Virus record (IMG/VR): IMGVR_UViG_3300025736_000231
Span: 1 to 22,257 of that record
DNA: 22,257 nt
Source of the DNA: a virus
Reading direction: 5' to 3' (one strand)
A program made the translations under genes and the position numbers. Of the stretch, positions 2,602 to 21,845 are shown one piece after another (within the stretch, counting starts at the first letter, position 1; every line of letters begins with the position of its first letter). The notes below the pieces were generated by a model. That model did no database searches. It was not told where the DNA came from and saw nothing but the letters and a program-made list of their open reading frames with translations.

Positions 2602-2619
2602 GTGTGCAGCGCTATACAC
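2602..2619. promoter_or_regulatory. Operator-like imperfect palindrome upstream of terminase operon
   Basis: The 18-base sequence GTGTGCAGCGCTATACAC pairs with its own reverse complement at seven of nine positions, plus one G-T wobble. It lies about 115 bases upstream of the small-terminase start, between two copies of an AT-rich TTTATATATTTTT motif. The size and symmetry fit a dimeric repressor or activator site. No cognate regulator is identified. Confidence 0.3.
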
Positions 2620-2845
2620 AATTTTATATATTTTTGGGACTTTTCCGGCTAAACAAATAAAACGTAAACCGGCAAATTAGCCGCTTACCCACTTTTTTTA
2701 AGTTTACATTATGAATTACCTTCGATTATCGACACGGAAGGGCTGAGGTAACTAGGGACTCCAACAGCTTTCGGGCCGGGGGGTGTGGTAAGAAAATCCC
2801 AGGCCAAAATAAAAAGAAATAAGATAATAAATCATCTAATCAAAT

Positions 2846-2940
2846 TACAGCCCACAGCCTCACAGCTCACCACCTCACAGCACAGCTCACAGCACAGGAC
2901 CCGCACTGCCCACAGCCCACCACACCACATGACAGCCCAT
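2846..2940. repeat. Low-complexity CACAG/CTCAC-rich tract
   Basis: About 95 bases made almost only of C and A with scattered G. ACAG recurs at 2847, 2854, 2862, 2877, 2882, 2889, 2894, 2912 and 2932, with spacings often of 5 or 7-8 bases. The tract is strongly strand-asymmetric. It is not a clean tandem repeat and has no coding potential. It recalls the other strand-biased pentamer-like tract in this window at 8530-8843, but the unit differs. Confidence 0.6.
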
Positions 2941-3150
2941 GTATTATAGGTGATATTGGTATTGTGTTACTTACCAAGCGAACGCTTGGACATTATCGCA
3001 GCTCAACTAGTTATAAAGCCAAGATCTAACAGGTCCATAAGCAGATAACCAGAACGGCCTGACTACCCACCACCTCCACCTATACACACGGGAGGCCAAA
3101 ACACTCCAAATTTATAACCCCTAACCCCCTGATATACCTTCATAAAGGGC

Positions 3151-3442
3151 CAAGTTTATACGATTTATAACTTGTGATTATAAATTTACCCTCTGTCTAA
3201 CTACCTGTTATTACTTTATAAAACACCTCTTTTTATCAAGTTTATAATTTATAACCCGTTACCCCCATACAATAAAAAGTCTAAATCAACATAAATTCAC
3301 AGAATAATTAACACAATAGTATTTAAAAAAAAAAAAAATATAATAATAAAATAACACTACACTACTCAAGCAAAATCAAGCACTTAGCAACATTTCAAGT
3401 TTATAATAAGTGCAATATGAAGAGCTATAAACTTATAAACTT
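3151..3442. repeat. Cluster of AAGTTTATAA-type repeats, both orientations
   Basis: Direct copies of CAAGTTTATA(A) lie at 3151-3160, 3237-3247 and 3396-3406. Inverted copies TATAAACTT and TTATAAACTT lie at 3426-3434 and 3433-3442. Degenerate inverted versions occur near 3166-3175 (TTATAACTTG) and 3178-3186. The cluster ends just upstream of the early promoter. Such short repeats in an AT-rich gene-free region are typical of replication-initiator iterons or of operators; which applies here is inference. No initiator gene of a known iteron-binding type was recognised. Confidence 0.5.
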
Positions 3443-3460
3443 CTCCCTGTACCACGAATA

Positions 3461-3494
3461 GGTTGTTGACAACCTCGCCTTAGTAATATATAAG
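3461..3494 (+). promoter_or_regulatory. Early rightward sigma70-type promoter with overlapping inverted repeat
   Basis: The -35 box TTGACA (3466-3471) is followed after 17 bases by TATAAG (3489-3494), close to consensus. The -35 box is embedded in GGTTGT-TG-ACAACC (3461-3474), whose six-base arms pair perfectly; a repressor bound there would block the promoter. The first gene starts at 3531 with GGAGG at 3519-3523, so the leader would be about 30 bases. It should drive the operon of small genes from 3531 onward. Confidence 0.7.
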
Positions 3495-3530
3495 TACAGG
3501 TAGAATATAAACAATATTGGAGGTTACACC

Positions 3531-3701
3531 ATGCCAAGAACATCAAACAATATAACAGACAAAACGGGCAGAATAATTGATGGTTATGATTATGATTTGC
3601 AGGTCTGGATTTTGTCCGGCAGATATCAAAACTGTGGACATCCTGAAGACATGAATTGTGATTGTTTTGGCCGACTACATCAGGGAGAGGAAAACAAATA
3701 A
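3531..3701 (+). CDS. Small Cys-containing protein of unknown function (56 aa)
   Basis: This is the first gene after the early promoter. ATG 3531 lies seven bases after GGAGG. The 56-residue product ends in a Cys/His-bearing stretch, CGHPEDMNCDCFGR, that could bind a metal ion. The N-terminal half is polar and has no recognised motif. It is followed after two bases by the next gene. Many phages place small host-modifying proteins in this first early position, but no specific function can be assigned. Confidence 0.6.
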   Translation: MPRTSNNITDKTGRIIDGYDYDLQVWILSGRYQNCGHPEDMNCDCFGRLHQGEENK

Positions 3702-3703
3702 TC

Positions 3704-3847
3704 ATGAAATTAACAAGTGATGGATATATCTTGAAAGTAATTAAATCGACCTATTATAAAACATTAAATATTACTTGCAGTCTGGTATTAAAAAGACTTC
3801 CAGACGGCAGAAAAACAAAGTTAAATATTATAACGAAAGGCCAGTAA
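3704..3847 (+). CDS. Small unknown protein (47 aa)
   Basis: A 47-residue basic protein with alternating hydrophobic and charged residues that suggests beta strands (residues about 8-45). The frame is open further upstream to 3662, but ATG 3704 is preferred because it sits two bases after the previous stop and avoids a 40-base overlap. A GGGAGAGG sequence lies about 13 bases upstream, which is far, so translation is probably coupled to the gene before. Its TAA is directly followed by the ATG of the next gene. Confidence 0.5.
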   Translation: MKLTSDGYILKVIKSTYYKTLNITCSLVLKRLPDGRKTKLNIITKGQ

Positions 3848-4195
3848 ATGAAAATTGAAACATTAAAAGAATTATCAAAACTATCTGACCGCATTTTAGA
3901 CATTGCGGACAAATTCGACGAACTCACCACTTCAGACCTGCAAGGCATTATTGGTGCTGTTCTTCTGGACGCTTTCAACCTTGAAAGAATTAAGAAACCC
4001 AAACCCACACCCACAGCAGGAGCAGGAAACAAGAAGAAATTTAATTATGTTGATGAACAGTTTAAAAAAATTGTTCCTTATGATTCTGGATATAAAGCCA
4101 CGATCAAAATCATGACAACCGCAGGCCATACAAACAACATGGATATAACCGTTCCACAACTTAATAAAATCAAATTAATCTTAGCAGGAGAATGA
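3848..4195 (+). CDS. Unknown early protein (115 aa)
   Basis: The N-terminal half (residues 1-50) is predicted helical and acidic. It is followed by a Pro/Ala/Gly linker (KPKPTPTAGAG, about 51-61) and a basic, strand-rich C-terminal half. This resembles two small domains joined by a flexible linker. AAAGG lies eight bases before the ATG, which abuts the stop of the preceding gene. No family was recognised. Confidence 0.7.
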   Translation: MKIETLKELSKLSDRILDIADKFDELTTSDLQGIIGAVLLDAFNLERIKKPKPTPTAGAGNKKKFNYVDEQFKKIVPYDSGYKATIKIMTTAGHTNNMDITVPQLNKIKLILAGE

Positions 4196-4196
4196 C

Positions 4197-4355
4197 ATGG
4201 TAAAAGAAAACTTTCAGAAAATGACAACAATTGAATTGTTGCAACATGATAAAGTCTGGGAAAATAACGGCAAATATACCCTGAGATATTTGGTAAATAA
4301 GTTAATAAAAGATCGTGAAGAACTTCAAACAATAATTGATTCACTCTTAAAATAA
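4197..4355 (+). CDS. Small helical unknown protein (52 aa)
   Basis: A 52-residue, mostly helical charged protein, starting one base after the preceding stop, with AGGAG about seven bases before the ATG. The pattern of Leu/Ile in the second half (YLVNKLIKDREELQTIIDSL) suggests a short coiled coil. No family was recognised. Confidence 0.6.
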   Translation: MVKENFQKMTTIELLQHDKVWENNGKYTLRYLVNKLIKDREELQTIIDSLLK

Positions 4356-4369
4356 CTGGAGGCCATACC

Positions 4370-4528
4370 ATGACAGAATTAACAAAACAAAATATTTATG
4401 ACTGGTTAGGCTCTGACAACACCGAAGCCCAAGCCGTTGAGATCATCCAAGATTTAGCCAATGGGAATTATGATATTGAAGCCCTGAAAAGTGATATCTC
4501 AGGATATCAAGATAATTTGAAGCCATAA
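4370..4528 (+). CDS. Small acidic unknown protein (52 aa)
   Basis: A 52-residue acidic protein with a strong ribosome site, CTGGAGG, seven bases before ATG 4370. The central helix (EAQAVEIIQDLANGNYDIEALKSDI, called here in part) resembles many short phage proteins of unknown role. After its stop, another frame stays open from 4516 to 4620 with a CxxC-like segment but no normal start codon, so a lost C-terminal extension is possible. Confidence 0.6.
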   Translation: MTELTKQNIYDWLGSDNTEAQAVEIIQDLANGNYDIEALKSDISGYQDNLKP

Positions 4529-4597
4529 CCCATGATGATATTTGTCAAACTTGTGAGACTATCGCTAAAAAATTGAACTTAACTATCGGGGCAAAAC

Positions 4598-4777
4598 ATG
4601 CACGTTTACAGCAAAGACATTAACAATAAAAGAATAGTTCTAACTGAAGTAAAAGGCATTTGGAAACTGACTGTAATTAATAGATCAAGTAATAATTATA
4701 CAACATCAAAAGTATATGGAAAGGATGAAAAAAAGGCCCGGGCAGAATATAAACAGAAAATAAAAGATAATTCTTAA
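4598..4777 (+). CDS. Small basic unknown protein (59 aa)
   Basis: A 59-residue Lys-rich protein. Residues 12-40 have the alternating pattern of a beta hairpin and the last 19 form a charged helix. The ribosome site before ATG 4598 is weak (GGGG). A stem-loop follows directly after the stop. No family was recognised. Confidence 0.5.
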   Translation: MHVYSKDINNKRIVLTEVKGIWKLTVINRSSNNYTTSKVYGKDEKKARAEYKQKIKDNS

Positions 4778-4781
4778 AAGC

Positions 4782-4821
4782 TTGAGGAAATAAGCGCACC
4801 TGCTTATTTCTTAAACTTTTT
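4782..4821 (+). terminator. Stem-loop followed by T-run; first copy of a duplicated leader element
   Basis: GAAATAAGC (4787-4795) pairs perfectly with GCTTATTTC (4802-4810) across a six-base loop. The outer pairs G4786-T4811 and A4785-T4812 extend the stem, and T5 follows at 4817-4821. It could be a weak intrinsic terminator after the 4598-4777 gene. The stem is AU-rich and a near-copy precedes the 5354 gene, so it may instead be a leader or mRNA-processing element. Confidence 0.5.
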
Positions 4822-4842
4822 AATAATAACAGGAGACATAAA

Positions 4843-5268
4843 ATGAAATATACAGAACTAAAAGCAAAGCATTCGGCCGAAGTAAACAACTTCCCCATGG
4901 CCTTCTCTTTCTCAGACGATCAGCTTGTTAAGGCTTTGAAAAAATTAAATGTAAAACGTGAAAACATGGAGGCGGAACTTATGGGCCTTGACGGTGGCGG
5001 AATGATCCGAAAAACGGACGTAGAAGCTTTTGACAACATGTTTGCAAGACACCGGACAGAACGGGCCGAAGCCTTTAAAGACGACGAATTTTTAATTAAT
5101 GCGATTAATTACGAACTGGGAAATCATGAATTTATTATAACTTATGACCCACAGCCAGTAATTGACGCGCTCAACCTTGATATTGAAGACGAACGGGTTT
5201 TGAAATGTTTTTGTATTGCAAGAAAAAAATATCTGGAATGGCAGGAAGAACACGGCTGTTTTGCATAA
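4843..5268 (+). CDS. Conserved-looking phage protein of unknown function (141 aa)
   Basis: An acidic 141-residue protein with AGGAG seven bases before its ATG. The N-terminal segment (NFPMAFSFSDDQLVKALKKL, about residues 16-35) resembles a group of small phage and plasmid proteins that share an FP-x-x-FxFS-x-x-Q motif. I recognise the motif by memory only. A Gly-rich turn (GLDGGGM) and a helical C-terminus follow. The gene is flanked on both sides by copies of the same hairpin element. Function unknown. Confidence 0.8.
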   Translation: MKYTELKAKHSAEVNNFPMAFSFSDDQLVKALKKLNVKRENMEAELMGLDGGGMIRKTDVEAFDNMFARHRTERAEAFKDDEFLINAINYELGNHEFIITYDPQPVIDALNLDIEDERVLKCFCIARKKYLEWQEEHGCFA

Positions 5269-5281
5269 CTTTTTAAACTTT

Positions 5282-5330
5282 TTAGGAAATAGGCTTAAGG
5301 GCTTATTTCTTAAGATGTTTAAATAATAAT
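5282..5330 (+). repeat. Second copy of the duplicated hairpin/leader element
   Basis: GAAATAGGC (5286-5294) pairs with GCTTATTTC (5301-5309). Outer pairs down to T5282-A5313 make a 13-base stem that includes two wobble pairs. The right arm TTATTTCTTAA and a following TTTAA(A)TAATAA segment match the copy at 4782-4832. The loop differs (TTAAGG versus GCACCT) and no T-run follows, which argues against a simple terminator. Confidence 0.55.
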
Positions 5331-5353
5331 ATCAATTACTTGAAAGGTGCATT

Positions 5354-5626
5354 ATGAAAACCTACGCAGATTTAGAAACCGCTTTAATGCTCGAATTAAA
5401 AATTTGGTTTAAAAGACAGTGCTTGCTTCCTTCTGAAAGTTTTTATCTTTATTATCAAGAGAAAACATCAGAACATAACGGGGGAATTATTATTTTAGTG
5501 GATCCGCCGGCAAATAAAAACTATCGCCTTGCCTCTGCTGAAAGAATTAACAAAGGCGCAACAATTGAACAGAATTCTAATTACTTCCGCAATTCAATAC
5601 TTGGTGGACTTCCGGTATTAGGATAA
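5354..5626 (+). CDS. Unknown early protein (90 aa)
   Basis: AAAGGTG lies seven bases before ATG 5354. The N-terminal 20 residues form an amphipathic helix; the middle has a strongly hydrophobic strand, GGIIILVDPP (about 43-52). The C-terminus is polar. A family was not recognised. Its stop codon begins one copy of the recurring ATAAACAATTA spacer. Confidence 0.7.
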   Translation: MKTYADLETALMLELKIWFKRQCLLPSESFYLYYQEKTSEHNGGIIILVDPPANKNYRLASAERINKGATIEQNSNYFRNSILGGLPVLG

Positions 5627-8530: not shown

Positions 8531-8843
8531 GCAGGCGTGGACTGGCGGGGCGGGGCATGGTCAGGCCCGGCGCGGAATGGCTTGGCAGGCATGGCCAGGC
8601 GCGGTGAGGCAAGGCGAGGTGAGTGGGGCGAGGCATGGCAGGCGTGGTCAGGTCTGGTTTGGCATCGCTGGGCGAGGCGAGGTATGGCGGGGCAGGCTGG
8701 GCGCGGCAAGGTTCGGCGGGGAGAGGCAAGGCGTGGCAGGGCAGGGCAGGTTAGGCGTGGCGAGGCAGGGCAGGGCACGGCAGGCTAGGCGTGGCGAGGT
8801 TTGGCTTTGCAAGGTCAGGCATGGCAGGGCGAGGCAGGCAGGG
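8530..8843 (+). repeat. Degenerate pentamer (GGCNN) array, about 60 units
   Basis: About 314 bases in which GG recurs every five bases, mostly as GGC followed by two variable bases (GGCAT, GGCGA, GGCAG, GGCAA, GGCGT, with some GGT variants). Occasional four-base units shift the phase. The plus strand is extremely G-rich and the minus strand C-rich. A period of five cannot encode a regular protein, and the long open frames on both strands (for example plus 8502-8873 and minus 8527-8778) exist only because the pentamers seldom contain stop codons. The G2N3 spacing could form two-layer G-quadruplexes in single-stranded DNA or RNA. It lies between the 148-residue gene and the recombinase. Confidence 0.9.
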
Positions 8844-8869
8844 AAATCTATAACGAAAGGAGGAACAAA

Positions 8870-9571
8870 GTGACTAATGCAATTATTTACGCGAGGTTTT
8901 CTCCGCGCAGAAACGCTGAAACTTCAGACTCAAACGAGATCCAGAAGGCATATTGTGAACAGCATGCTCATGACAAAAAATACACTGTGGCCGGTTTTCA
9001 TGAGGACAAGGCCCTTTCCGGATCCGACGCAGATCGTCCGGCTTTGTGGGCCGCCCTGGAGCAATTAGAAAAGGGCTCCGTCTTGCTGGTTTATAAGCTC
9101 GACAGACTGGCCAGAAACGTCTATCTGATGGAATTAATAAAGCAGGCAGTGAAAACCTGCGGCGCAAGGATTGAAGCCGTTGAGGGCGATGTTGAAGGCG
9201 ATACGGCTGAATCTGTGCTGATTAGACAGATACTTTCTAGTATATCGGAGTATGAACGCAAGATCATAGCCTTAAGGACTAAATTTGCAATGCAGCAACA
9301 TCAGCGAAACGGAAAGAGAATGGGTAGGTTTCCGCCTTATGGTTTCCAGATCGATCCGGAAGACAATACCATGCTCATCCCGGTTGAACTAGAGCAAAAG
9401 GCAATCGTCCGGATCTGGGCGATGAAGGCCGAAGGATATGAGACTATGCAGATTGCCAGAAAGATGAACCATGAGAAGTTGCATAAGACCCGGAACGGAA
9501 ATCGCTGGGCCAGAAAACAAATTGATAAAATCTTAAGTAATCACAAACAAATAAAAGGAGACAGTAAATGA
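8870..9571 (+). CDS. Small serine site-specific recombinase (resolvase/invertase family)
   Basis: Serine recombinases cut and rejoin DNA at short sites through a covalent 5' phosphoserine link. The resolvase domain is clear: YARFS (Ser11 as the nucleophile, Arg9 beside it), DRPAL (Arg56), and VYKLDRLARN (Arg79 and Arg82). The SEYERKIIALRTKFAM helix follows, then a short C-terminal DNA-binding part with GRFPPYGFQI and a helical NRWARKQIDKIL end. The GTG start at 8870 is chosen because AAAGGAGG ends six bases upstream; the frame is open back to 8801 only through the pentamer array. At 233 residues it is closer to resolvases than to large serine integrases, which run 450 or more. It could be an integrase, a resolvase, or the mover of an adjacent element. 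It overlaps the next gene by ATGA. Confidence 0.9.
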   Translation: MTNAIIYARFSPRRNAETSDSNEIQKAYCEQHAHDKKYTVAGFHEDKALSGSDADRPALWAALEQLEKGSVLLVYKLDRLARNVYLMELIKQAVKTCGARIEAVEGDVEGDTAESVLIRQILSSISEYERKIIALRTKFAMQQHQRNGKRMGRFPPYGFQIDPEDNTMLIPVELEQKAIVRIWAMKAEGYETMQIARKMNHEKLHKTRNGNRWARKQIDKILSNHKQIKGDSK

Positions 9572-17297: not shown

Positions 17298-18617
17298 TTA
17301 TTTGTTTGGTCCTGTTAATTCTAGTATCCATGCTGTTTGTGAGCATTTAACAATAACGGCAACACGCCGTCCCTTGATCTCTTTCGCCATATATTTGCCG
17401 TCATGCTGTGTTGCTGTTGGATTCACGTTTGCCAGAGATTCGTTATAAAACGATTCCCACGCCTTATTGAGCATAGACGCTGGCCCGCTCCACTTCTGGA
17501 CGCTCAAATCACTCTCGTACCGCTCCATAACATTGCCAATCGGCACTCCACCATAAACGACCTCAGATCCCGAAAACTCTTCCTTGATTATTTGAGTTTT
17601 GTCGTTGAGACTTGAAGGAGTACAGGCCATAAGTTCTTTTGTGCTCCATTTTCCATCACCGTCGCCGTTTACCCAAATTGATCCATCCTTATTTGTGAAT
17701 TCAATGCTGTTGTCTGTTGAGTCTGTTGGTTTTGCGAAGTGGATCAGGTCTGGCAGAACGATGTGATGAGGGCAGGCTTCAAGCTGTTTTTCGCGTGAAA
17801 TTGTCGCTCCGGTATAGTTACAGCTCCAGCGTCCATGGTCCGTGTCCGTTTCGGGAGTAGAATGGCAACATTGCCTGCAGGAAATGTACGGTACCGGCAA
17901 AGCTTTTAAGGATTCCCCCCAACATAAATCGGAGGCAGGACAAAACCTGCAGGTAAATGTTCCGGGTTTTGAAACACATCTTTCTGGAGCATGTCTGGCT
18001 AGAATTATCCGACGGGCCTTCGCTATTAGTTCGTTAGATTCCCGTCCACTATAATGAATCCGCTCGGTGTAAAGTTCATCGGTGTTTTTGTTTACAGCCA
18101 TATACAAGGCACGCTTCATGCCCGTCTTATGCATATACATTTGCATCTGAGCATAGTGCTTGAAGAATCCGACCTTAACGCCTTTTTTCTTCAGGATCTT
18201 AAAATATTTGTCGTTGTGGGTTTTGCCTTCGAATACATGCCAAGTTTTAGGAGCTTCAGGAATACCTAAGCAGCAACCGTCCATATGACCGCTAAAATGA
18301 CCGCTGACATCCGACATACCAAACTGTTCACCTTTGTCATCAACGTCGTGAACGGTTACGCCTATAGACCTTAGATCCCTTACCATCCGGCCTTCCTGCA
18401 GGTGTCCTGTCTCAAACAACCTGTAAAGTCTGCCAGGGAAATTCTCTTGTACGCAATCGTTAAAATCGTACCAGAGATAACGATCACACTCATGGCCAAT
18501 GATACTGGCCCCCAGATATCCCCTTGGAGGCTCAGTATCGCCATCAACCTTAAGGCTAATATATATGGCCGTGACTGTTTGTGAATCAGTTGGGAGACAG
18601 GAACTAATATCTCCCAT
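17298..18617 (-). CDS. Cas4-like PD-(D/E)XK nuclease with extra C-terminal Cys domain
   Basis: A 439-residue nuclease of the phage Cas4/RecB-like type. The nuclease signature is GHLQEGRMV (H72/E75), GHMDG (D113), VFEGKT (E130 and K132) and HYAQMQMYM (Q157/Y161). The iron-sulfur cluster ligands fit C44 (GHECDRYLWY) and the C-terminal group near C214, C223, C226 and C232 (CRFCPASDLC). Residues from about 245 hold a second Cys/His group (CRQCCHSTPE ... WSCNYTG ... CPHH) that looks zinc-binding, and then a strand-rich domain. It would resect DNA ends for strand annealing. TAATG coupling ties it to the Gp157-type gene upstream. Confidence 0.85.
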   Translation of the reverse strand: MGDISSCLPTDSQTVTAIYISLKVDGDTEPPRGYLGASIIGHECDRYLWYDFNDCVQENFPGRLYRLFETGHLQEGRMVRDLRSIGVTVHDVDDKGEQFGMSDVSGHFSGHMDGCCLGIPEAPKTWHVFEGKTHNDKYFKILKKKGVKVGFFKHYAQMQMYMHKTGMKRALYMAVNKNTDELYTERIHYSGRESNELIAKARRIILARHAPERCVSKPGTFTCRFCPASDLCWGESLKALPVPYISCRQCCHSTPETDTDHGRWSCNYTGATISREKQLEACPHHIVLPDLIHFAKPTDSTDNSIEFTNKDGSIWVNGDGDGKWSTKELMACTPSSLNDKTQIIKEEFSGSEVVYGGVPIGNVMERYESDLSVQKWSGPASMLNKAWESFYNESLANVNPTATQHDGKYMAKEIKGRRVAVIVKCSQTAWILELTGPNK

Positions 18618-19216
18618 TACTTAATCACTAATATTTTTTCACGTTTTGGAAGGCATGCACCTTCAACCGCAATCCCAGCTTTGAGATCGGCGCGAATGTC
18701 GTCGGTCAAGACCTTGGTTGTGGTTACTTCTTTAAGGTATTTCCTAGCCAAATCCGGCACGCCTTCGCTGTCCACTTCGGCAAAAATATCAATCGGTGCT
18801 TTCCCTCCGGGGTTCTGGACGTTCAAGGTATGTTTTGTGGTTTTGACTTTTGGGATGTTTGAGGATTCCATGGCATGTTTTAATAACTCTTTGACTTTAT
18901 CAGCCTTTGCAGAAAACTGCTTCGCCATGGCCTGCAGCCTTCCAGCCTCAAGCTTGAGAGTTTTTTCCTGAGCGATAGCATCTTTGATTATATAAACAAA
19001 CTCATCAGCTCTTTCGGCCAAGTTCTCTTTGATATCGTCATAAAACGATTTCAAAGCGTCCTGAACGGCCGCGGAAGGGCCTTCGGCCTCACCTTGAACA
19101 CCAGAGGCCAATGTTTCATTCTGCTCTTCAGTATAGAGGTCCCATGCGCTTGCAAAGCTGTCGGGGGTTCCGAACGATGTCAGCTCGGGCTTAACTAATT
19201 TCAATGCTGTGTTCAT
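18617..19216 (-). CDS. Gp157-family phage protein (199 aa)
   Basis: The central helix (about residues 70-115, EFVYIIKDAIAQEKTLKLEA and onward) and the strand segment KVKTTKHTLNVQNPGGKAPI, followed by VPDLARKYLKE and then TDDIRADLKAGIAVEGACL, match the layout of the siphovirus Gp157 family. Members occur beside recombination and ssDNA-binding genes in phages; the precise function is not settled. The N-terminal 45 residues are extra, acidic and low-complexity. It sits between the Cas4-like nuclease and the DUF669 gene, which agrees with that context. Confidence 0.8.
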   Translation of the reverse strand: MNTALKLVKPELTSFGTPDSFASAWDLYTEEQNETLASGVQGEAEGPSAAVQDALKSFYDDIKENLAERADEFVYIIKDAIAQEKTLKLEAGRLQAMAKQFSAKADKVKELLKHAMESSNIPKVKTTKHTLNVQNPGGKAPIDIFAEVDSEGVPDLARKYLKEVTTTKVLTDDIRADLKAGIAVEGACLPKREKILVIK

Positions 19217-19231: not shown

Positions 19232-19807
19232 CTATCGCTCCCATGGCGGTTTAGTTTTGGTTGATGACGTAGTTGCTGGTTTGATGGTTTTTTTTGCCTG
19301 AGGCTTTGCCTTTGTGGTCCCACTGTCTGGCTCAGTACCAGCAGTCGCTTCTTTTTCTTCTTTTTCTTCTTCTGCTTCTACTTCCTGATCCGGGTTAGCT
19401 GGCTTGTACGTCCGGACTTCGTTCTCAGCTTCACGATCACCGTCACCAGCCTTAACTTTGAGCTTGACGATAATTATTTTCTCGATCAGTTCCTGGCTGT
19501 CGGTAATCGCAGCCAAGCCAAGGGCCTGCCCAAGAGCGGCCAGTTGCTTAATGCCAATCTCAACGCATTTCGAATTTGGGTTGCTAAGGTTAATGTTATC
19601 AAAGACTTTCCGGCCCTCATATTCTTCTCCAATAACAGAAAGCTGAAGTTTGAGATATGATCCATCGCCTTTTTTAGTCTCTTTTACTTCTGCTTTCTCG
19701 ATGAACATGTGGTATTCACCAGGAGGCAAAGGTTTAAAGTCTTCTGTCTTTTCATGCTGGCCTGGCTCGAAAGCGTTCCCACCATAACTATCTGAAATAT
19801 CGCCCAT
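19232..19807 (-). CDS. DUF669-type ssDNA-binding protein candidate
   Basis: Residues 20-110 show the DUF669 pattern: FKPLPPGEYHMFIEKAEVKE, then GSYLKLQLSVIGEEYEGRKV, FDNINLSNPN, and a helix IGIKQLAALGQALGL. These proteins have an OB-like fold and are thought to bind single-stranded DNA in phages. After the fold comes a long acidic Glu-rich stretch (about 140-155), then a Lys/Thr/Ser-rich tail ending KPPWER. AAGGAG lies nine bases before the ATG. It probably partners the Sak4-like protein encoded just upstream. Confidence 0.8.
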   Translation of the reverse strand: MGDISDSYGGNAFEPGQHEKTEDFKPLPPGEYHMFIEKAEVKETKKGDGSYLKLQLSVIGEEYEGRKVFDNINLSNPNSKCVEIGIKQLAALGQALGLAAITDSQELIEKIIIVKLKVKAGDGDREAENEVRTYKPANPDQEVEAEEEKEEKEATAGTEPDSGTTKAKPQAKKTIKPATTSSTKTKPPWER

Positions 19808-19831: not shown

Positions 19832-21634
19832 TTATTTAACTACCTTAGTCAATGCTTTCATAAATTCATTCCAGTCAAGAGGCAGTTCATATGGCAATCG
19901 GCCATAAGGGCCACGACCACCACCCGGATGAGCTGGTCTTTTCTGGGTGAACAGAAATCGGAATCCACCAGTTACGTCAATACCGCGTTTCTTTTCCTGT
20001 CCAAACCCTTTGTCTTCTTTCTGCACCTTAACTTTAGTGTTGCAAAACAGAATTACATCTGCCCAACGAAAAAGCATATTTACGGCTTTCTCGTTAATGT
20101 CAAGAATGTACTGATCGTAGCTGTCACCGGATGGATCGTCAAAGCGTTTAACCTTAACATGTCCGATAATAATACTGGACATCCCTTTGTGGCTTCTCAG
20201 GGCGTCCAACCCTTCTGTGATCTGTCTCCAATAGTTCACTGATTCGGTGTATCCTTTGCCATACCCACCGCCAACGGCCTCAATATTCTTTACGTTTGCA
20301 GCGTCGCAAACAGCGTTCCAGACAAGAGGCTCCATCGCGCTTGCGCTGTCTAAAACTACGGTTCTGTGCTCATGTTCTTCGGAGTAAAGGGATCCAAGTG
20401 CTTCGATAATATCTTCAAATTTATTGCAAACTGGAAACTTTGGGATTTCCAAGTCGTCTGCTCCCTCTTCACCTTTCATCGATAATAGGATAGGAGCGTT
20501 CAAGCCGGTCTTGAATATTTTATTGTCCTTAAATTGCGTTCCGCAGGAAAAGGTCGTGTTGTGTGTTACGACCAAATCTCGTCCCGCTAGATAGGTGTGA
20601 GAGGGTGAATCGACGGATATACATTTAACAGGGACGGACTTTACAGGTGTAACGGAGACGATAGCATCTTTATTGGCTTTCCTTCTGGAGTTTTTTGTTT
20701 TAAAGCAGTTAAACTTAAACTTTGAAAACCTAAAAGGATTTTCTTTCGGGAAAAATGCTACACGAAAATTGGGCCCACAATCTTTGCCATTAAGTTTTGC
20801 ACGACATCTTGTAATAGATGCTTTGACCCCGAGAGATCGAAGCAGTTCGATAAATCCGTCACAGAGACACTCTTTGACCGTTGAGAATTCACACTGGCCT
20901 TTGTTGTTGTCGTAGCAACATCCGTCAGTATCCATGAGCCCAGCCAGCAAGCTTCTCCTGTCTTCTTCGGTACTTTCCCAAACTGAAGCATGGGGGATGT
21001 GCTTATTGCCTAGCAGGTTTCTGTTTCTTAGTTTTACTTTAAGACCTAAGATCGTAGAAGTCTTGCAGCCAGCAGTTTGGTATGGTTTACCAGTTGATCC
21101 CAAATTATTTCCAATTAGAGCGTCCCTGTCTGATATTGTTACTCGACCATCGCTAGAACTTCCATCTCCGAGCCAAACTCCCAAAACATATGGGTCAATG
21201 CCTATTACTGAAGTCTTCTTTATCTTGAGCGGGAGCGTGATTGGGACTGCATGATTGTAACGATCTCCGTTGGGAGGTCTAAGGGTCTTAAGGATTTGGC
21301 CTGTAGTCAACACTCGTTCTTTATTGTCCCGTATCGACCTTGTGAGCCATTGATGCTCTTTATCGGCTATCAATGAGGCCCCGCTCTTAAACTTCACTTC
21401 ATAGCAGGTTCGTTTTTCCATGATACCCGTCACATCGGTAACGCGTACCATGCTGCCGTCTCTATCAAAGACATAATCCCCTCTTTTAATAAATTTCAGT
21501 GGTTGCCATCCCCTGTTTGTAAAAATTGGGGTATTGTAGTCGAGAGCCTTCCCGATCTTTTCAACACCTAGAACCAGGATCCTTGGTGCTCTTAAAATTG
21601 TTTCTTTTTTAATACTGTTAAGGTCAAACGTCAT
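19832..21634 (-). CDS. Sak4-like RecA-fold ATPase interrupted by an intein in its Walker A motif
   Basis: The 600-residue precursor contains a host protein of 270 residues after splicing. The extein halves are residues 1-29, ending GVEKIGK, and 360-600, starting TTFSCGT; joined they make a normal P-loop, GVEKIGKTTF. Walker B is TVVLDSAS. The body matches phage nucleotide-binding proteins of the Sak4/RecA core type, which anneal single-stranded DNA with help from an SSB-like protein; the DUF669 gene follows directly. Gly/Pro-rich RPAHPGGGRGPYG lies near the C-terminus. The unspliced protein lacks an intact ATP site, so activity should need splicing. GGAAGGAG lies nine bases before ATG 21634. 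Confidence 0.9.
   Translation of the reverse strand: MTFDLNSIKKETILRAPRILVLGVEKIGKALDYNTPIFTNRGWQPLKFIKRGDYVFDRDGSMVRVTDVTGIMEKRTCYEVKFKSGASLIADKEHQWLTRSIRDNKERVLTTGQILKTLRPPNGDRYNHAVPITLPLKIKKTSVIGIDPYVLGVWLGDGSSSDGRVTISDRDALIGNNLGSTGKPYQTAGCKTSTILGLKVKLRNRNLLGNKHIPHASVWESTEEDRRSLLAGLMDTDGCCYDNNKGQCEFSTVKECLCDGFIELLRSLGVKASITRCRAKLNGKDCGPNFRVAFFPKENPFRFSKFKFNCFKTKNSRRKANKDAIVSVTPVKSVPVKCISVDSPSHTYLAGRDLVVTHNTTFSCGTQFKDNKIFKTGLNAPILLSMKGEEGADDLEIPKFPVCNKFEDIIEALGSLYSEEHEHRTVVLDSASAMEPLVWNAVCDAANVKNIEAVGGGYGKGYTESVNYWRQITEGLDALRSHKGMSSIIIGHVKVKRFDDPSGDSYDQYILDINEKAVNMLFRWADVILFCNTKVKVQKEDKGFGQEKKRGIDVTGGFRFLFTQKRPAHPGGGRGPYGRLPYELPLDWNEFMKALTKVVK
20558..21547 (-). mobile_element. Class 3-type intein with LAGLIDADG homing endonuclease (330 aa)
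   Basis: It covers precursor residues 30-359. The first residue is Ala30, not Cys or Ser. Trp96 (HQW, intein residue 67), Cys338 (VKCISV, intein 309) and Thr357 (VVTHN, intein 328) match the Trp-Cys-Thr signature of class 3 inteins. The last residues are His358-Asn359 and the following extein residue is Thr360. Two endonuclease dodecapeptide motifs are present: VLGVWLGDGS (150-159, D157) and LLAGLMDTDG (229-238, D237), both with their acidic residue kept, so homing may still work. Splicing would leave GVEKIGK-TTF. The insertion lies exactly between the P-loop Lys and the following Thr. Confidence 0.9.
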
Positions 21635-21845
21635 TGTTAGTAACTCCTTCCCTTTCCTCTTTTAACTGCTGTTTGGCGAATATAATGATTTTAAGCTTGC
21701 TAATATCACCCCACCTAATTCTATGCGCACACGATTGAATGTACTGGAGTAGCAAAAAAGTTCTTGACGATCTTACACAGGTAGAATGTTTGTTTTGACC
21801 TAATTTAGAAAGAAAAGTCCTTTCGTTCGACGTTGTGTATCTCAT
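21624..21845 (-). CDS. Unknown small protein, first gene of the replication operon (73 aa)
   Basis: ATG 21845 follows GGAGGTGA by a few bases, a near-perfect ribosome site, and the gene overlaps the ATPase start by 11 bases. The 73-residue product is basic with several Cys and Ser (CVRSSRTFLLLQYIQSC) and a Lys/Glu-rich helical tail. No family was recognised. A second ATG nearby (out of frame) gives only 14 codons. Confidence 0.55.
   Translation of the reverse strand: MRYTTSNERTFLSKLGQNKHSTCVRSSRTFLLLQYIQSCAHRIRWGDISKLKIIIFAKQQLKEEREGVTNNDV

Follow-up and report, generated by a model that had tools for sequence, protein, structure and literature searches.

Background

Class 3 inteins are recognised by a triplet of block residues, Trp (B:12), Cys (F:4) and Thr (G:5) (PMC7891396; PMC7664689). 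The block F position is occupied by Asp in class 1 and class 2 inteins (PMC6195587). MsmDnaBi1 is a class 3 intein that lies in the P-loop of DnaB (PMC6195587) and, together with MchDnaB1, it is represented by the structures 6bs8, 6rix and 6riy. A P-loop insertion that separates the invariant Lys from the Thr has been termed 'classic' (Kelley 2016, PMC5050341); TerL1-a, which we compare by its description, and other phage terminase P-loop inteins occupy this same Walker A Lys/Thr site. The intein of the RadA recombinase also lies in the RadA P-loop, and in Pyrococcus horikoshii single-stranded DNA stimulates its splicing (PMC5790916).

Sak4-type proteins are phage annealing ATPases in which the role of the ATP site has been studied (PMC5928155; see also PMC5499656). 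We hereby analyze an intein inserted in a gene of this type. Like MsmDnaBi1 it sits in a P-loop, and it shares with MsmDnaBi1 and MchDnaB1 the Trp-Cys-Thr triplet, the DxxH of block B and Cys48; unlike ours, those inteins are hosted by a replicative helicase, have no endonuclease domain and are followed by a +1 Ser. Terminase P-loop inteins differ from it in their host, but related inteins with an endonuclease are found among them, such as that of locus L007, which matches ours at 42% over the intein. The RadA inteins of P. horikoshii and Thermococcus sibiricus, again compared by description, share with it a position in the P-loop of a RecA-family recombinase, but they are archaeal mini-inteins without endonuclease and with a reactive C1 (PMC5790916).

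Architecture of the precursor gene

The window, by which we mean the whole stretch of viral DNA that was analysed (22,257 nucleotides), carries on its minus strand a single open frame for a precursor of 600 amino acids (19832-21634, with the ATG at 21634-21632 and the stop codon at 19834-19832). Its parts, the codons of interest and the genes of the surrounding module are listed here.

21644..21649, minus strand: Shine-Dalgarno-like AAGGAG (by eye), 9 bases ahead of the precursor ATG
21548..21634, minus strand: N-extein (residues 1-29) of the Sak4-type ATPase; it ends in ..GVEKIGK, the first half of Walker A
20558..21547, minus strand: intein of class 3 type, A30-N359 (330 aa), with a homing endonuclease of the LAGLIDADG family
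19832..20557, minus strand: C-extein, beginning with Thr360 (+1) and including the stop codon; Sak4-like ATPase with AAA_24
21404..21406, minus strand: C77 codon (intein C48), aligned to Cys48 of MsmDnaBi1, which is there the disulfide partner of the block F Cys
21353..21355, minus strand: H94 codon (intein H65), block B:10 His
21347..21349, minus strand: W96 codon (intein W67), block B:12, Trp of the triplet
21164..21166, minus strand: D157 codon (intein D128), acidic residue of the first LAGLIDADG motif, LGVWLGDG
20924..20926, minus strand: D237 codon (intein D208), acidic residue of the second LAGLIDADG motif, LLAGLMDTDG
20621..20623, minus strand: C338 codon (intein C309), block F:4, Cys of the triplet and nucleophile by analogy
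20564..20566, minus strand: T357 codon (intein T328), block G:5, Thr of the triplet
20555..20557, minus strand: Thr360 codon, +1 residue, which would double as the Walker A Thr after splicing
19232..19807, minus strand: single-strand DNA binding protein (SSB-type ORF), directly downstream of sak4
18617..19216, minus strand: Gam-like end-protection protein of the sak4 recombination module
17298..18617, minus strand: Cas4-domain exonuclease of the same module

The bounds that the first-pass annotation had given to the intein were exact on readout, and D91, H94, H358 and N359 of the precursor were read out as well. The gene is intact in six IMG/VR records, the window and five more of the same phage; the latter differ from the window gene by 0 or 1 base over 1803 bases, and the sole variable base among the six changes F558 to S, within the C-extein.

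Elsewhere in the window, at 8667-8800, we observed 4.6 tandem copies of a G-rich 29-base unit, immediately ahead of an integrase/invertase-type ORF (8801-9571).

Host protein

A phage Sak4-like ATPase had been proposed as the host, with its P-loop split between Lys and Thr, and both proposals were borne out. The C-extein matches Pfam AAA_24 (E 5e-26) and phrog_124, the Sak4-like ssDNA annealing protein (1.5e-21), and the SSB-type gene follows immediately, a linked ssb gene being usual in Sak4 phages (PMC5928155). Moreover, when the joined exteins were aligned with six insert-free Sak4-type proteins, the junction lay precisely after K29 and before the T of G....GK[TS], and joining the flanks in silico restores the Walker A sequence GVEKIGKT. 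Judged by these matches, the host is probably a Sak4-type single-strand annealing ATPase, which would be 270 residues long once spliced.

The three top PHROG matches of the whole precursor are terminase families (36964, 19299 and 15). A terminase host was nevertheless rejected, since these matches begin ahead of the intein and run through it and AAA_24 sits in the C-extein; inteins inside those families would probably explain the matches. The NCBIfam model TIGR01618 phage_P_loop gave the precursor 21.9 bits, far under its curated cut-off of 138.75, and the protein is not assigned to that family.

Class 3 signature and predicted fold

The nearest PDB sequences to the window intein are the class 3 DnaBi1 inteins 6rix, 6riy and 6bs8 (E 7e-20 to 1.7e-18), to which both of its ends align. 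The HQW of block B and the Cys of block F are matched in all three, and the terminal THN in 6rix and 6bs8, 6riy being the N145AA variant. Entries of PI-SceI come next (about 1e-6), through the endonuclease part, and in the same search gp41-1 gave E 0.2 as wild type and 0.008 in its engineered form with the triplet. In the alignment to 6rix and 6bs8, and also within the 172 distinct inteins described below, W67, C309 and T328 of the intein fall on B:12, F:4 and G:5; these are the residues W96, C338 and T357 that the first-pass annotation had singled out together with +1 Thr360, and the alignment of blocks B, F and G that it had suggested thus places them as it expected. The first residue of the intein, Ala30, is no nucleophile, and the block B His (H94), the terminal H358-N359 and the +1 T360 are all present. 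The insert can be classified, from its sequence, as a probable class 3 intein.

The endonuclease part is matched by Pfam Hom_end (7.8e-8) and LAGLIDADG_3 (1.2e-6). Both motifs keep their acidic residue, as had been noticed before; these are D157 and D237, which correspond to D128 and D208 of the intein.

The intein was modelled with AlphaFold2 from 69 aligned inteins (pLDDT 92.9, pTM 0.91). In VIA-align, PI-SceI (1jva_B) matched the model over its whole length (Z 28.0 over 313 residues), and the model shows the LAGLIDADG endonuclease fold as a prediction; MsmDnaBi1 (6bs8) matched the predicted splicing domain with Z 22.6, at 1.3 A over 125 residues and 38% identity. After the class 3 DnaB entries the next mini-inteins were engineered gp41-1 (Z 18.3) and wild-type gp41-1 (Z 18.2). 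The class 3 split intein AceL NrdHF reached only Z 15.7, a value no higher than those of class 1 inteins; it is therefore to the DnaB type, and not to class 3 as such, that the model is structurally close. A model of the whole precursor, made from a shallow alignment, was poorer in the exteins (pLDDT 75.6 overall, pTM 0.62): residues 1-27 and 361-397 have pLDDT below 50, and most of the intein is confident. Such low extein values agree with an unformed P-loop, and may only reflect the shallow alignment.

Relatives and the insertion site

Relatives were gathered with a four-sequence intein alignment, taking the best 80 of 594 confirmed viral loci and the best 80 of 105 confirmed genome loci, and two junction patterns added 22 and 49 stretches. 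Of the 206 ORFs that bear an intein, a figure that counts copies of the window's phage, 17 were dropped for missing ends. The remaining 189 represent 172 distinct inteins, and 169 of these, among them the window intein and the seeds, are no longer than 450 aa. The class 3 seeds, the block B pattern and the junction patterns pre-select part of the signature, and for this reason its positions were counted separately. Among the matches listed, the F:4 Cys, which is in no search pattern, is present in 169 of the 169 inteins; the block B Trp in 85/85 of those found without the block B search pattern; and the G:5 Thr in 155 of the 156 that were not found through junction patterns. The first residue is Ala in 154 of the 169 listed, and C48 is kept in 145, mostly in other host proteins.

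Among the same matches the intein directly follows Gly-Lys in 155/169 cases (78/92 viral or phage loci and 77/77 genome loci), intein starts being shifted to Gly-Lys if within four residues; unshifted, the figures are 153/169 and, for viral or phage loci, 76/92. The +1 residue is Ser or Thr in all 169 of the matches listed. We then have the hosts: 79 usable C-exteins from the best 80 of the 594 viral loci (L134, with 9 residues, was left out; some are near-copies, and the window's phage is not among these loci) matched TerL_ATPase in 30 cases, Terminase_6N in 18, Terminase_3 in 4, GpA_ATPase in 3, AAA_25 in 3, DnaB_C in 1 and portal families in 5, and none of the 79 matched AAA_24 at E 0.001. 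The site is consequently typical for such an intein, and the host is not.

The first-pass annotation holds in its class 3 assignment, its Lys/Thr site, its Sak4-type host and its endonuclease motifs; its suggestion that the insertion point might be undescribed has to be given up. A new kind of insertion point is ruled out by the classic status of the Lys/Thr site in Kelley's text, and MsmDnaBi1, RadA and deposited phage Sak4-like cases are precedents. Class and site are already known kinds, and it is Sak4 as a P-loop intein host that appears to be undescribed: no report of an intein in Sak4 was recognised in the open-access literature searched, the excerpts of PMC12403621, which name both inteins and Sak4, report none in Sak4, and those of PMC3888941, on a relative of phage 949, have inteins only in the reference list.

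The intein of mycobacteriophage C1 'RecB' (the label 'RecB-like' is Kelley's, PMC5050341), whose match runs into the exteins, was considered as the same insertion and discarded, because the insert follows ..VELK with no P-loop; no Pfam extein domain was found around it.

Inteins in other Sak4-like proteins

A search for inteins at the same P-loop site in Sak4 homologs, which had also been proposed, found eight distinct Sak4-like proteins besides the window's, three of them in deposited phage genomes. Through the junction pattern and a follow-up scan, L245, L253, L299, L300 and L318 were seen to carry an intein directly after the GK of a Sak4-type protein; L245 and L253 were confirmed by AAA_24, and L299, L300 and L318 were assigned to Sak4 by a seven-sequence Sak4 profile only. 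The deposited genomes are those of Lactococcus phages 949 and AM5 and Bacteroides phage BS-TP3, which share with the window an AAA_24 host domain and an intein directly after G....GK. The BS-TP3 intein belongs to another clade, and the inteins of 949 and AM5, which are outside the set of 169, differ from the window's in having, by eye, Ile where class 3 has Trp, so that P-loop relatives do not all have the class 3 triplet. For Lactococcus AM4 and LW81 there is an entry in the match list only.

These related inteins of 949 (L288, 2953-5046) and AM5 (L289, 2935-5043) start with Ala and Cys, respectively, while the F:4 Cys and the G:5 Thr are by eye retained in the two; the pair possibly marks a passage in nature between classes 1 and 3. 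L315 (ORF from 2432) and L317 (ORF from 1820) are P-loop inteins with Cys1, an F:4 Cys by eye and THN, whose nucleophile is not evident from sequence. L301 has a Sak4 and intein gene with a frame broken within the intein (two ORFs), by decay or sequencing error, and is counted outside the eight. At L245, in the same module as the intein-bearing Sak4, a protein that is helicase-like by eye (2615-5398, minus strand) has a second insert, which starts with Cys and lies in the region of Walker A (..VLPTG/C...HHN/TGKS).

For the trees the 169 inteins were thinned at 72% identity to 133; a 100-row tree had 35 genome rows removed and 949 and BS-TP3, without AM5, added, and a 33-row tree was hand-picked, with 949 left out as a long branch. 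In the 33-row tree a 100/100 branch splits two clades, the window intein being in one and those of L245, L253 and BS-TP3 in the other, and 0 of 200 bootstrap trees unite these four. A single origin of all Sak4 inteins was rejected as one clade (AU p = 0.00117, for 4 Sak4 inteins in 33 hand-picked rows), a p-value that is indicative only, as the group was picked after the first tree. Separate invasions of Sak4, more than one in number, are the simplest reading of these trees; counts of changes on the tree do not separate gain from loss, and a less simple alternative would be that Sak4 had its intein from early on and that other host proteins received theirs from it. Among the relatives collected no close intein-less allele was found that would point to recent homing: the five near relatives all bear the intein, and the closest Sak4 beyond them is at 38%.

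In the 33-row tree the sister of the window intein is that of L130 (96/89), itself a long branch; among the starred sets of the 100-row tree that hold at most half the rows, none contains the window intein. The host of L130 was read as a nuclease by its D..DWK motif. L130 (ORF from 2509) and L013 (2599-4362, Mycobacterium phage Breeniome gp213) have class 3-type inteins outside P-loops, at the D.K / E.K motif of apparent PD-(D/E)XK nucleases, by eye and with no Pfam nuclease match.

Proposed splicing and homing, and possible regulation

We give a probability of roughly 0.88 to the reading that a full-length class 3 intein with a LAGLIDADG endonuclease lies between Lys29 and Thr360, in the Sak4 Walker A motif, and is self-splicing and homing. 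By analogy with known class 3 inteins, the block F Cys338 would attack the Lys29-Ala30 bond with the help of His94 and Thr357, the N-extein would be transferred to Thr360, and Asn359 would cyclise before an acyl shift joins the exteins, giving the 270-residue Sak4 with GVEKIGKT intact. The endonuclease would cut intein-less alleles, into which the element would then be copied. Most likely it is a mobile parasite that is tolerated since its splicing leaves no scar, and we rank a plain parasite ahead of any regulatory role.

It is plausible, as the first-pass annotation had suggested, that the unspliced precursor is unable to bind ATP, so that splicing could gate recombination. In a regulated switch, Sak4 would be without a P-loop until a signal, either ssDNA or the Cys77/Cys338 redox state, sets off splicing and thereby determines when the phage recombines. 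The faster splicing of the RadA precursor with ssDNA (PMC5790916) and the need of HK620 Sak4 for ATP in ssDNA binding and annealing (PMC5928155) are in its favour, as is the Cys48-Cys118 disulfide that blocks splicing of MsmDnaBi1 (PMC6195587), of which the window intein keeps the pair as C48/C309. However, C48 is so widespread in other hosts that it indicates no Sak4-specific adaptation, and in MsmDnaBi1 Cys48 is needed for splicing itself (PMC6195587). The poorly modelled exteins would suit a switch, but a shallow alignment alone may account for them; the complete endonuclease motifs fit a parasite; and the Walker A mutant K30A of PA73 Sak4 still recombines, 2-fold above background, its authors now suspecting that the ATP site is also needed there (PMC5928155). 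We regard such a switch as unlikely, and we find it decidedly doubtful that class 3 inteins repeatedly captured the Sak4 Walker A because splicing there times recombination through ssDNA or Cys77/Cys338 redox. If this were true, active annealase would be released only once replication has made its substrate.

That the intein has decayed or does not splice, leaving Sak4 cleaved or inactive, is very unlikely in our judgement: neither the known splice residues nor the acidic ones of LAGLIDADG are missing, the reading frame is uninterrupted, the model is confident and other Sak4 genes have open-frame inteins at the same place, even if one variable base among six records makes selection unreadable from the coding sequence. 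We give hardly any weight to a class 1 or class 2 splicing route, or to a P-loop host other than Sak4. The terminase families at the top of the PHROG matches and the low phage_P_loop score could be quoted for another host, against which stand AAA_24 and phrog_124 in the C-extein and the SSB neighbour; another class is opposed by the absence of a residue-1 nucleophile and by a block F Cys in the place of Asp.

Significance

Terminase labels on AAA_24 proteins are a trap for annotation, as are the three PHROG terminase families whose match to the precursor extends over its intein: the Sak4-like intein proteins of Lactococcus phage 949 and Bacteroides phage BS-TP3 (NC_015263, PQ571276) are annotated as terminase large subunit, that of AM5 as AAA domain-containing protein. 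With the intein of the window, a phage RecA-core annealing protein joins the host proteins of P-loop inteins, and the other lineages found suggest that Sak4 is a repeatedly invaded site. As a small candidate ATP-dependent annealase, it lets the idea drawn from RadA, that ssDNA controls the splicing of a recombinase, meet a class 3 intein.
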